NCBI GenBank assembly: GCA_013215775.1
Contig: JABSQO010000002.1
Location: forward strand, 62,001 to 126,000
Origin: Piscirickettsiaceae bacterium
Lineage (GTDB): Bacteria; Pseudomonadota; Gammaproteobacteria; Nitrosococcales; Methylophagaceae
DNA: 64,000 nucleotides
Direction of reading: 5' to 3'
Below the pieces are notes generated by a model that did not search any database, was not told the DNA's origin, and saw nothing but the letters and a program-made list of their open reading frames with translations. Positions 41,532 through 49,585 of this stretch are shown here, in pieces. Position numbers and translations under genes: made by a program. Each line of letters begins with the position of its first letter. Position 1 is the first letter of the stretch.

Positions 41532-41646
41532 TTTTCTATATCCAAATTCTCTAACAGCGTTAACTCATAATTTAGAGACAAGTAATTTTTTGATTTATAT
41601 GAAATAATCACCCTTAATTTTTATTCAAGGATTGAAGTCGTTTCTT

Positions 41647-43572
41647 ATGTCTCACGCGATTATGTCATCTGTTTCACAATGGTTTTTATCACGCTCGCGA
41701 TCTATGAAGCGGCTTATCACGTTAAGCGTGGATCTTATCGCAATTGTGATTGCCTTATGGATGGCATTTTCTCTTAGATATAGTGAGTTATACCTCCCAC
41801 CACAAGAGCAGTTCTGGATTTTTGCATTGGCTCCGATTACTGCCATTCCAGTATTTATACGGTTTGGATTGTATCGTGCCGTTGTTCGATATATTGGGCT
41901 GCATGCATTAGCAACAATATTCCAAGCAGTTGCGTTATATACCGTATTGTTTGCGACAATGATATTGATTTCAGGTTCTTTAGCAGGTGTGGTTCCTCGT
42001 ACCGTCTATGGCATCAATGCCCTAATTTTATTGTTATTTGTTGGCGGTAGTCGTTTAGTTGCTCGTTGGTGGTTTTCAGATCTTCAGAATAACAAACAGT
42101 TTGATGTTAGCCTAAACCGACGTATTCCACCGGTTATTATTTATGGTGCAGGGGCATCAGGAGTACAGTTAGCGACAGCCTTGAAGAGTAAAAACCAACA
42201 AAGGCCAGTTGCCTTTATTGATGATGCAAAGCAACTCCATAACCAGCAGGTTGATGACCTTACTGTTTATCCTTTTAGCCGATTAAATCACCTAATTGAA
42301 AAATTCTATGTGCAAGAGGTACTACTGGCAATTCCCTCTATTTCTAGAGCTCGCCGTAATGAAATTATTGAGTTATTAGAACCCTATCCAATTCATATTA
42401 AAACACTACCGAGGTTGAGTGATATTGCTGAAGGTAAGGTGACCACCTCGGATATTCAAGAAGTTGATATTGCTGATTTATTGGGTCGTGAGCAAGTTAC
42501 ACCAATGCAGAATTTGTTAACTGCCAACATCAATAATAAAGCGGTGATGGTAACAGGTGCCGGTGGTTCAATTGGTACTGAATTATGTCGCCAAATTGCA
42601 CAAATAAGGCCAAAGATACTGGTTTTGTTTGAGCTTAATGAATTTGCTTTATATGCCATTGAAAAAGAATTGAAACAGCATCATGCGACATTAGCTGTTA
42701 TGGCTGTTTTAGGTTCCGTTCAAAATCAGCAACGCTTAGAAGTGATTTGTCGACGATTCTCAATCGATACAATTTATCATGCGGCAGCTTATAAACATGT
42801 GCCCTTGGTAGAGCAGAATGCCAGTGAAGGAATTAGTAATAATATTTTTGGCACGTTGAGTTGTGCCAAGGCCGCGCTGGCGGCCAATGTTGAAACTTTT
42901 GTTTTAATTTCGACAGATAAAGCGGTTAGACCAACTAATACGATGGGGGCGAGTAAGCGTTTTGCCGAATTGGTATTACAGGGACTCGCTGCTGATAAAC
43001 AGAATTCGACAACACGATTTACAATGGTACGCTTTGGCAACGTATTAGGTTCTTCTGGGTCAGTCGTACCATTATTTCGTGAACAAATTGAAAATGGTGG
43101 CCCTGTTACGGTCACTGATACCCGAATTATTCGTTATTTTATGACTATTCCAGAAGCAGCAGAATTAGTTATTCAAGCAGGAGCAATGGGTAAAGGCGGT
43201 GATGTCTTTGTATTAGATATGGGCTCTCCCGTTAAAATTCTTGATTTAGCAAAACGGATGATTCATTTAAGCGGCTTTATTGAGAAAGATGACGATCATC
43301 CAGAAGGTGACATTGAAATTATTTTTACCGGTCTACGATCTGGTGAGAAACTCTATGAAGAATTATTAATTGGCGATAATGTCACGGCTACCGAGCATAG
43401 CAAGATCAGTCGGGCTCAAGAGCTAGTCATTAATTGGCAACAACTGAGTAAGATTCTGGAACAACTGGAACGACTTAATAATAAAAATGATTGCCAAGGG
43501 GTGAGGCAATTATTGCTCAAGCATATTGAGGGGTTTCAACCGCAATGTGAGGTTCAAGATTGGTTAGGTTAA
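41647..43572 (+). CDS. WbpM-type nucleoside-diphosphate-sugar 4,6-dehydratase, membrane-bound
   Basis: A 641-residue two-part protein. Four membrane helices occupy about residues 18-140. A Rossmann domain (YGAGASGVQLATAL) follows, and a C-terminal short-chain dehydrogenase begins at VMVTGAGGSIGTELCRQIAQ. The catalytic motif TMGASK is of the SMK type found in WbpM rather than YxxxK. Such proteins turn UDP-GlcNAc into UDP-4-keto-6-deoxy-GlcNAc for surface sugars such as QuiNAc, FucNAc or bacillosamine. The ATG at 41647 has GAAG 9 bases upstream; a TTG at 41632 is possible. It heads the polysaccharide cluster. Confidence 0.92.
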   Translation: MSHAIMSSVSQWFLSRSRSMKRLITLSVDLIAIVIALWMAFSLRYSELYLPPQEQFWIFALAPITAIPVFIRFGLYRAVVRYIGLHALATIFQAVALYTVLFATMILISGSLAGVVPRTVYGINALILLLFVGGSRLVARWWFSDLQNNKQFDVSLNRRIPPVIIYGAGASGVQLATALKSKNQQRPVAFIDDAKQLHNQQVDDLTVYPFSRLNHLIEKFYVQEVLLAIPSISRARRNEIIELLEPYPIHIKTLPRLSDIAEGKVTTSDIQEVDIADLLGREQVTPMQNLLTANINNKAVMVTGAGGSIGTELCRQIAQIRPKILVLFELNEFALYAIEKELKQHHATLAVMAVLGSVQNQQRLEVICRRFSIDTIYHAAAYKHVPLVEQNASEGISNNIFGTLSCAKAALAANVETFVLISTDKAVRPTNTMGASKRFAELVLQGLAADKQNSTTRFTMVRFGNVLGSSGSVVPLFREQIENGGPVTVTDTRIIRYFMTIPEAAELVIQAGAMGKGGDVFVLDMGSPVKILDLAKRMIHLSGFIEKDDDHPEGDIEIIFTGLRSGEKLYEELLIGDNVTATEHSKISRAQELVINWQQLSKILEQLERLNNKNDCQGVRQLLLKHIEGFQPQCEVQDWLG

Positions 43573-46848: not shown

Positions 46849-46925
46849 TGAAATATGAAAAATCATTAGATGGAAAGTTTGAACAGCTATTTCTATATCA
46901 TAAGCGCGGGTTAGTCATTGAGTAA
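46848..46925 (+). CDS. Possible 25-residue coupled peptide
   Basis: A short frame begins at an ATG overlapping the flippase stop (TAATG) and ends in a TAA that again overlaps the ATG of the glycosyltransferase. The predicted peptide is MKYEKSLDGKFEQLFLYHKR plus five residues. It might be a coupling peptide, a leader, or a remnant of a lost gene. Both overlaps are visible; function is unknown. Confidence 0.4.
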   Translation: MKYEKSLDGKFEQLFLYHKRGLVIE

Positions 46926-48037
46926 TGAGGAATATGAGCAGGAAAAAATCAGTTTCTATCATTGGCACTGTGGGTCTTCCTGCACAGTATGGTGGGTGGG
47001 AAACTTTAACAGAGCATTTAGTTCTAGAGTTAGAAGATAGATTTGATTTTACAGTCTATTGCAGTGCACCGCATTATGAGGAAAAAAGCACCCACTTTTC
47101 TAAGGCAAAATTAAAGTATATACGATTGAAGGCAAATGGAATCCAGAGTATTCCTTATGATATTTTCAGTATGTTGCACGCGATCAAGTACAGTGATTAT
47201 TTACTCGTTTTAGGTGTTTCGGGATGCATTTTCTTGCCGGTTCTCCGCTTGCTCACTAATAAACCAGTAGTAGTGAATATAGATGGCTTAGAGTGGAAAA
47301 GAGACAAGTGGGGGATATTGGCGAAATGGTTTTTAAAACTGTCTGAGGCAACTGCTATACGTTATGCAGATAGGGTAATTACTGATAATAAGGCAATACA
47401 AACTTACGTCTTTGAGGAATATGGAAAAACCAGCGACTTGATTTCTTATGGTGGTGACCATGTAGAAAAAATAACCGATATTGAAAATGTGGATATATAT
47501 CCGTTTGTAACTGAATCCTATTCTTTTACTGTTTGTCGAATTGAACCAGAAAATAATATACACATTATTTTGGAAGCATTTGAACAGAGTGATTTGACGT
47601 TAGTTATTGTTGGTAATTGGAATAATAGTCAATACGGAAAGCAGTTGAAAGCTAAGTATCTAAATGCTGACAATATTTATCTCATTGATCCTATTTATAA
47701 TCCTGAAAAGTTAAATTTTTTGAGATGTCATTGTTCAATTTATATCCATGGGCATAGTGCAGGAGGAACAAATCCTTCTCTGGTTGAGGCTATGTCATTA
47801 GGGCTTGCTATAGTAGCCTTTGATGTAATATACAATCGTGAAACTACTAGAAATAATGCATGTTATTTTAAAGGTGCAGCAGAGCTGATAATGACGGTTA
47901 ATTTATTGTTAGTAGATGATGAACGTAGAAATGCCTTGGGGAAAAGTATGTATAACCTTGCTACCAATTATTATCGTTGGGAGAATATTGCAAATCAGTA
48001 TGCGGTTTTGCTCAATCAAATAGATGGAAAAAAGTAA
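46925..48037 (+). CDS. Glycosyltransferase with DUF1972 N-terminal domain (GT4-like)
   Basis: A 370-residue transferase. The N-terminal part SIIGTVGLPAQYGGWETLTEHLV is the DUF1972 signature found in rhamnosyl- and other sugar transferases; the C-terminal part has a GT4-type nucleotide-sugar motif (HSAGGTNPSLVEAMSLGLAIVAFDV). It should add a sugar to the undecaprenyl-linked unit in the cytoplasm. The gene appears more AT-rich than its neighbours, a possible sign of transfer. ATG 46925 overlaps the preceding stop; ATG 46934 is an alternative. Confidence 0.9.
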   Translation: MRNMSRKKSVSIIGTVGLPAQYGGWETLTEHLVLELEDRFDFTVYCSAPHYEEKSTHFSKAKLKYIRLKANGIQSIPYDIFSMLHAIKYSDYLLVLGVSGCIFLPVLRLLTNKPVVVNIDGLEWKRDKWGILAKWFLKLSEATAIRYADRVITDNKAIQTYVFEEYGKTSDLISYGGDHVEKITDIENVDIYPFVTESYSFTVCRIEPENNIHIILEAFEQSDLTLVIVGNWNNSQYGKQLKAKYLNADNIYLIDPIYNPEKLNFLRCHCSIYIHGHSAGGTNPSLVEAMSLGLAIVAFDVIYNRETTRNNACYFKGAAELIMTVNLLLVDDERRNALGKSMYNLATNYYRWENIANQYAVLLNQIDGKK

Positions 48038-48072
48038 ATTAAAACTCAAATAAAATTGTCGGATAAAAGCTT

Positions 48073-49041
48073 ATCACTACTACAAATATATTATTAACTG
48101 GCGCAACAGGCTTTGTAGGCAGTGCTTTAACAGATGAGCTTTTATTACAAAAGTATCAAGTGTTCGCTAGTATTCGCGAATATTCTGCTAAGTTATCAAC
48201 TGAAATAAAGCAAGTCGATGTCGGTGATTTATTACCTTCTACAGATTGGACTGATGCACTAAGAAGTGTTGATGTTGTTATTCATCTTGCTGCTAGAGTT
48301 CATGTGATGGATGATGATGCTTTAGAATCGCTCACTGAATTTAGGAAAGTTAATGCTATTGCTACATTAAATTTGGCTCAGCAGGCAGTTGATGCAGGTG
48401 TGAAACGGTTTGTATTTATCAGTTCTATTAAAGTGAATGGAGAAGAGACAAAGAACGGATCAAAATTTTCACCAGATGATAATTATATTTCAACTGATCC
48501 TTATGGATTGTCTAAATATGAAGCTGAACAAGGTTTATTGGACTTGGTAAAGAAAACGGATATGGAGGTGGTAATTATTCGTCCGCCTTTAGTTTATGGC
48601 CCCAGTGTACGAGCTAATTTTTTATCAATGATGAAATGGATTAACAAGGGTATCCCTCTTCCTTTGGGTGCAGTAGATAATCAACGATCTTTAGTGGCAT
48701 TAGATAATTTAGTGAGTTTTATCATTCTCTGTATCGACCACCCAAAAGCAGTTAATGAAGTATTTTTAATTTCTGACGGTGAAGATGTATCAACAACTGA
48801 ATTATTAAAGAAAGTGGCAAATTCTTTTGATAAAAAATATTGTTTACTTCCCGTTCCAGTTGGTTTGATGAAGTTTGTGGCTAAATTATTGGGTAAAAGT
48901 GATGTGGCCGATCGTTTATTTGGGTCATTACAGGTAGACAGCTCTAAGGCGAGAAATCTACTTGATTGGCAACCAGTTATTACAATGGATGAACAATTAA
49001 AAAAAACAGCGGACTGGTATTTGCATGAAAAAACTGTTTGA
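48073..49041 (+). CDS. NAD-dependent sugar epimerase/reductase (WbpV/WbuV-like SDR), start codon abnormal
   Basis: Extended short-chain dehydrogenase: Rossmann motif NILLTGATGFVGSAL, NAD-region VIHLAARVHVMDD, FISSIKVNGE, catalytic YGLSK, and the IIRPPLVYGP block. It resembles the reductases that make UDP-QuiNAc from the 4-keto sugar delivered by WbpM-type enzymes. The homologous frame runs back to 48067, but contains no ATG, GTG or TTG before the GTG at 48160, which would remove the Rossmann motif. The natural N-terminus appears to be ATC-ACT-ACT-ACA (48073), as if an ATG became ATC. The gene may use a rare start, be impaired, or reflect a sequence error. The end overlaps the next gene by 17 bases. 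Confidence 0.82.
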   Translation: MTTTNILLTGATGFVGSALTDELLLQKYQVFASIREYSAKLSTEIKQVDVGDLLPSTDWTDALRSVDVVIHLAARVHVMDDDALESLTEFRKVNAIATLNLAQQAVDAGVKRFVFISSIKVNGEETKNGSKFSPDDNYISTDPYGLSKYEAEQGLLDLVKKTDMEVVIIRPPLVYGPSVRANFLSMMKWINKGIPLPLGAVDNQRSLVALDNLVSFIILCIDHPKAVNEVFLISDGEDVSTTELLKKVANSFDKKYCLLPVPVGLMKFVAKLLGKSDVADRLFGSLQVDSSKARNLLDWQPVITMDEQLKKTADWYLHEKTV

Positions 49042-49585
49042 TTTAATTCTGGCAGTTATTGCCTTAATGGTCCTTTTGGGTCCCATTATCGTGATTGCAT
49101 TTATGGTTAAGCTAACATCAAAGGGACCTGTTCTGTATTGGTCTGATCGTGTTGGTCAGGATAATCATATTTTCAAAATGCCTAAATTTCGTAGTATGAA
49201 TATTAATACACCTGCGGTAGCAACACATTTATTAGCCGATCCCGGAAGCGTTTTAACACCGATAGGGAATTTTTTACGTAAATCTAGTTTGGATGAATTT
49301 CCACAGCTTTGGTGTATTTTAAAAGGAGATATGAGTTTTGTAGGACCTCGCCCGGCTTTGTTTAATCAGGATGATTTGATTGAGTTACGATCGAAAAAGG
49401 GTGTACATAAGCTTGTGCCAGGTTTAACGGGTTGGGCGCAGGTTAATGGTCGTGATGAGTTGCCTATTCCACAAAAAGTTGAACTTGATATTGAATACAT
49501 GCAGCGGCAATCTTTCAGTTTTGATTTAAAAATCTTGTGGTTAACATGTTTGAAAGTACTTCTAAAAGAAGGGGTATCACATTAA
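49025..49585 (+). CDS. Undecaprenyl-phosphate sugar phosphotransferase, PglC-like
   Basis: A 186-residue monotopic sugar transferase: N-terminal re-entrant membrane helix (LFDLILAVIALMVLLGPIIVIAF), KMPKFRSM and the signature SLDEFPQLWCILKGDMSFVGPRPALF, then VPGLTGWAQVNGRDELP. These enzymes start synthesis of a lipid-linked glycan by moving sugar-1-phosphate to undecaprenyl phosphate. With the upstream dehydratase and reductase, QuiNAc is a reasonable guess for the first sugar. It ends the cluster. Confidence 0.92.
   Translation: MKKLFDLILAVIALMVLLGPIIVIAFMVKLTSKGPVLYWSDRVGQDNHIFKMPKFRSMNINTPAVATHLLADPGSVLTPIGNFLRKSSLDEFPQLWCILKGDMSFVGPRPALFNQDDLIELRSKKGVHKLVPGLTGWAQVNGRDELPIPQKVELDIEYMQRQSFSFDLKILWLTCLKVLLKEGVSH

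Follow-up and report, generated by a model that had tools for sequence, protein, structure and literature searches.

Gene content of the locus

The window, i.e., the whole 64,000-nucleotide stretch of DNA analyzed here, lies within a 242 kb contig of a 2.2 Mb assembly in 48 contigs, from a bacterium that is probably a marine methylotroph and harmless. The gene of interest encodes a putative sugar reductase and stands between a glycosyltransferase gene and a PglC-type transferase gene, with a WbpM-type dehydratase gene further upstream (Table 1); GlmS and a flippase are also encoded at the locus. By its gene content, this neighborhood is a predicted surface-polysaccharide locus, and it is this context, with the dehydratase, flippase, glycosyltransferase, and PglC-type transferase all adjacent, that makes plausible the link to the surface glycan drawn in a preliminary description of the same DNA. 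The glycosyltransferase has two in-frame ATGs, at 46925 and 46934, and since the Shine-Dalgarno-like sequence is stronger at the second (−4.5 vs −2.4 kcal/mol), ATG 46934 is probably its true start.

Table 1 Features of the reductase locus, with positions counted from the first letter of the window
Feature	Position	Strand	Basis or remark
WbpM/PglF-type nucleotide-sugar 4,6-dehydratase, likely substrate source	41632..43572	+	PF02719 1.3e-122; only copy in genome
Glycosyltransferase (DUF1972 / Glycos_transf_1), directly upstream of reductase	46925..48037	+	1/29 genus genomes
TTG, other frame; 13 codons, then stop 48095-48097	48056..48058	+	Canonical start, the only one close upstream with a frame that runs into the gene's first codons
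GGA, possible minimal Shine-Dalgarno element	48061..48063	+	Gap of 9 bases to ATC
In-frame TAA closing reductase frame upstream	48064..48066	+	Sequence
ATC, proposed weak start codon	48073..48075	+	No earlier in-frame canonical start; GGA 9 bases upstream; anti-SD energy near the median for real starts of the contig
Putative NAD-dependent sugar epimerase/4-reductase, from proposed ATC to stop; open frame from 48067	48073..49041	+	324-codon frame, PF01370, homologues
Codons for TGATGFVG, Rossmann nucleotide-binding motif, 5' of first canonical start	48103..48126	+	Translation; conserved in aligned homologues
GTG, first canonical start in reductase frame	48160..48162	+	3' of Rossmann motif; product without nucleotide-binding motif
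PglC-type bacterial sugar transferase; start overlaps reductase end by 17 bases	49025..49585	+	PF02397 7.8e-58

The reductase matched Pfam PF01370 (Epimerase) with an E value of 1.9e-34 and 119.6 bits, against a gathering cut-off of 20.9, in a match read from upstream of GTG 48160. Its translation, aligned with homologues, contains TGxxGFxG as TGATGFVG and YxxxK as YGLSK, the latter of which we take to be the catalytic pair of the epimerase/dehydratase family. The Pfam match and the position of TGATGFVG upstream of GTG 48160 bear out the initial identification of a Rossmann-fold sugar reductase. The best homologue in the genus is 71% identical, while the best match among solved structures, PDB 4zrm (residues 6–318, E 1.1e-15), is distant and is a UDP-glucose 4-epimerase, i.e., it is named as an epimerase and not as a reductase. 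Among the best 25 of the 33 NCBIfam models matched by the protein, none reached its cut-off. A second copy of the reductase was sought in the genome and not found, the next match being 26% identical.

Based on the neighborhood and on known pathways, the likely chemistry is the conversion of UDP-4-keto-6-deoxy-GlcNAc to UDP-QuiNAc or UDP-FucNAc, with an exact substrate that we infer. The UDP-4-keto-6-deoxy-GlcNAc 4-reductases of the WbpV/WreQ type, which act in UDP-QuiNAc synthesis, have the epimerase/reductase family in common with the window gene as well as the locus plan, beside a PglC/WbpL-type initiating transferase and a WbpM-type dehydratase. Unlike them, however, the window gene has no canonical start, and the likeness is one of neighborhood, not of aligned sequence. 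PMC4514872 describes a pair from Bacillus, and both the Rhizobium etli reductase and WbpV of P. aeruginosa are named there.

An intact gene without a canonical start

The reductase frame is open over 324 codons on the + strand, from the TAA at 48064–48066 to the stop at 49039–49041. Immediately after the TAA, its codons read AAG CTT ATC (48073–48075) ACT ACT ACA AAT ATA TTA TTA ACT GGC GCA ACA GGC TTT GTA GGC. On re-reading, the preliminary description was correct in placing the stop at 48064, in taking base 48075 as the third of an ATC, and in finding no ATG, GTG, or TTG in this frame between the TAA and GTG 48160. Readthrough of the stop from an upstream frame was considered and ruled out: the frame above TAA 48064 extends for 7 codons, to a TAA at 48040, and contains no canonical start.

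Inside the genes of the contig, 20% of 31-codon stretches (3881/19316) contain no ATG, GTG, or TTG, so the bare absence of these codons over such a length is not rare. Instead, the unusual feature is that conserved protein sequence lies inside the start-less stretch. We evaluated this for the 64 contig genes that could be compared with a homologue from the relative G027 (64 of the 67 non-overlapping genes, with alignments of at least 100 columns). Upstream of the first canonical start, 19 residues of the reductase are identical to its G027 homologue, vs 5 in the next gene and none in 45 of the 64. It is thus the only one of the 64 with more than five identical residues preceding the first canonical start.

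Homologues point the same way. The preliminary description had proposed a comparison with relatives, and among 21 homologues complete at the 5' end, the window reductase is the only one without a canonical start before the motif: in each of the 20 others, an ATG, GTG, or TTG lies 3' of the preceding stop and 5' of the motif, a comparison that left out G007, whose contig ends inside the gene, and the more distant L021–L032. Distant homologues L021, L023, L030, and L032 also have canonical starts. A non-canonical start conserved in relatives, which would be a supporting and not a strictly defining feature, was therefore found in none of these 20, and AUC use is not conserved. In most relatives the start lies 4 to 13 codons before the motif and is ATG, GTG, or TTG depending on the species. 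ATC 48073, 8 codons before the TG motif, falls inside this spread, and the nearest relative, G027, starts at a TTG one codon further upstream.

Taken together, these positions support one part of the earlier proposal of an altered start, namely that an ATC occupies the likely start site, and leave its other part, a single-base change from ATG to ATC, unsupported. With relatives starting at differing codons, and with the TTG of G027 one codon upstream, such a change is at most conjectural. A conspecific or near-identical sequence was found neither in the 29 genus genomes nor among genome contigs (best 68%), plasmids (best 56%), or viral contigs (pattern search, 0 matches).

We next consider decay, in tests that covered 11 of the 21 homologues from the start comparison. 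The 324-codon frame contains no internal stop. At 99 columns invariant in ten other homologues, the window protein departs at one, joint lowest of the 11 proteins. Against five homologues, dN/dS was 0.12–0.18 for the pairs with a computable dS, one pair being saturated. Relative-rate tests against G027 with nine outgroups gave mixed directions and no consistent acceleration of the window gene; the only two chi-square values above 4, 7.36 and 4.92, correspond to more changes in G027, and that of 3.63 to more in the window gene. Neither frame-breaking lesions nor relaxed selection, as expected of a pseudogene, were thus detected, although a start lost very recently would go unnoticed in these tests, since with a nearest relative just 71% identical a very recent loss of function leaves no trace. 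The silencing suggested in the preliminary description found no support in decay (no internal stop, 1/99 invariant columns), and a start-loss reading is weighed below as a rival. Overall, the reductase gene is real, whole, and under selection, and its start, as sequenced, is non-canonical.

A variable 5' junction

The sequence upstream of the reductase is poorly shared. The longest frame upstream of the window reductase matched none of the upstream proteins of the 20 other homologues at 1e-5, and the glycosyltransferase was found in 0 of the 28 other genus genomes at 1e-20. More generally, the genes upstream of the reductase tend to differ from species to species. With a private glycosyltransferase and upstream genes that differ by species, the 5' end of the reductase lies at a variable junction. 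DNA likeness to the nearest relative starts at 48078, just 3' of the ATC. This limit would fit an exchange of upstream genes in which each arrangement supplies its own start, and ordinary divergence of non-coding sequence would give the same pattern.

The reductase itself is an accessory gene in the genus, as judged from its distribution at E ≤ 1e-60: 14 of the 29 genus genomes have a match, including 11 of the 16 more complete ones. On the downstream side, the reductase and PglC genes are not adjacent in every genome: the gap between the reductase and PglC matches is 271 bases in G027 (L004) and 940 in G017 (L005), and in G021 (L007) the PglC match is on the strand opposite to the reductase.

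Candidate start sites and translation signals

Five candidate start sites were scored (ATC 48073, AAG 48067, ATA 48088, TTG 48056, and GTG 48160), with 58 shared starts of the contig and, for GGA, 2000 random places as comparison sets. ATC 48073 was the only candidate with a GGA at a normal Shine-Dalgarno gap. At AAG 48067 the GGA is just 3 bases upstream, and no GGA occurs within 25 bases upstream of ATA 48088, TTG 48056, or GTG 48160. For comparison, a GGA at a gap of 5–12 bases precedes 19 of the 58 shared contig starts vs 147 of the 2000 random places (~7%). The anti-SD energy at ATC 48073, obtained with a generic octamer and not one taken from the genome of the window, was −3.3 kcal/mol, which is matched or exceeded by 48% of the 58 real starts and by 16% of random places. 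Local folding at the site is weak (−2.3 kcal/mol vs a real-start median of −4.3). Since the element is three bases long and a GGA is found at ~7% of random places, these signals provide support, not proof, for ATC 48073. With the sole GGA at a normal gap among the five and a position within the spread of the relatives, ATC 48073 is, as initially suggested, the likeliest start site.

Initiation at AUC 48073 and its alternatives

We consider the locus best explained by an intact, selected nucleotide-sugar 4-reductase gene at a variable junction, without a canonical start and with translation likeliest from AUC 48073, a reading to which we assign a probability of about 0.5. We infer AUC initiation at a reduced level, with the base calls taken as correct. 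Initiation at AUC 48073 would be aided by the GGA at 48061–48063 and by a start region that is rich in A/U and has little structure. The resulting protein would begin MTTTNILLTGATGFVG..., with the N-terminal peptide (M)TTTNILLTGATGFVG, and its level would probably be below that obtained from AUG.

Some initiation at AUC and other near-cognate codons is known, and Hecht and others are said to have carried out a 64-codon study. Bacterial genes with an AUU start include infC and pcnB. In both, as in the window reductase, a near-cognate codon offers the sole plausible start for a gene that is intact; however, the odd start of infC is conserved and regulatory, whereas no homologue of the window reductase has AUC. 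For AUC itself, PMC6925171 reports that a GFP reporter with an ATC start is measurably expressed in E. coli, and gives ATC in two conflicting ranges, 19–44% of ATG and 0.01–6.5%, so that the cited AUC efficiency is ambiguous. Beyond this paper, our literature search found no bacterial work on AUC starts, and PMC11497404 and PMC9841429, in the portions available, do not treat AUC.

An error in a consensus base, with the true sequence carrying a canonical start, is an unlikely explanation that nevertheless deserves serious weight. The assembly is a fragmented draft in 48 contigs and probably a MAG, and it contains no match to a generic 16S 3'-tail pattern, as is usual for MAGs. An error would also agree with the canonical starts in all homologues, and would leave the gene otherwise intact, as it is. 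On the other hand, the contig genes show no real frame break relative to G027 (each of two split calls lies antisense to a larger gene), which suggests a clean consensus, and single-base errors are rare in a consensus built from deep short-read data.

A true start-loss allele, yielding little or no reductase and a surface glycan without the reduced sugar or with its 4-keto form, seems improbable. It would account directly for the lack of a canonical start in frame, and loss may be tolerated in the genus, given that 15 of the 29 genomes, several of them incomplete, have no match at 1e-60. According to PMC4514872, a Rhizobium wreQ mutant carries the 4-keto derivative and still infects, but slowly. 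Yet no further lesion accompanies the missing start, the gene shows no consistently faster change, and a plausible weak start is at hand. Moreover, because the start of the next gene lies within the end of the reductase, a lack of reductase translation might harm that gene as well.

We regard as very unlikely a start at TTG 48056 followed by a change of frame, through either a one-base length error or ribosomal slippage. The short frame opened by this TTG extends over the beginning of the gene, and TTG is in use at 7 of the 58 shared contig starts. However, no Shine-Dalgarno-like element, including GGA, precedes it, and its anti-SD energy is at the weak end, with 95% of real starts at least as strong. 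In addition, no classical slippery heptamer was seen in the stretch, and no split genes on the contig point to length errors. Finally, a protein start at GTG 48160, the first canonical start in frame, is extremely unlikely, as it would remove a nucleotide-binding motif conserved in every aligned homologue, and this GTG has no Shine-Dalgarno-like element and sits in a −9.2 kcal/mol hairpin.

Returning to initiation at AUC 48073, a broader and rather doubtful extension is that glycosyltransferase exchange beside a conserved reductase/sugar-transferase pair repeatedly replaces the reductase start, giving starts of varied strength and position. In the species of the window, the AUC left by such an exchange would then keep the dose of reduced sugar in the surface glycan low, and possibly tuned. 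Provided that the sequence is correct, the locus would add a natural near-cognate start to the small set of classic cases, and would do so at a junction that differs from species to species. Gene callers restricted to ATG, GTG, and TTG would in that case truncate the enzyme by ~30 residues, with loss of its cofactor site, or overlook its function. The biological stake is small: a single accessory gene for the glycan, in a single genome.

Separately, a 9-codon ATG frame at 48024–48053 opens within the 3' end of the glycosyltransferase gene and terminates 19 bases 5' of the ATC; such a frame could pass ribosomes to the reductase.
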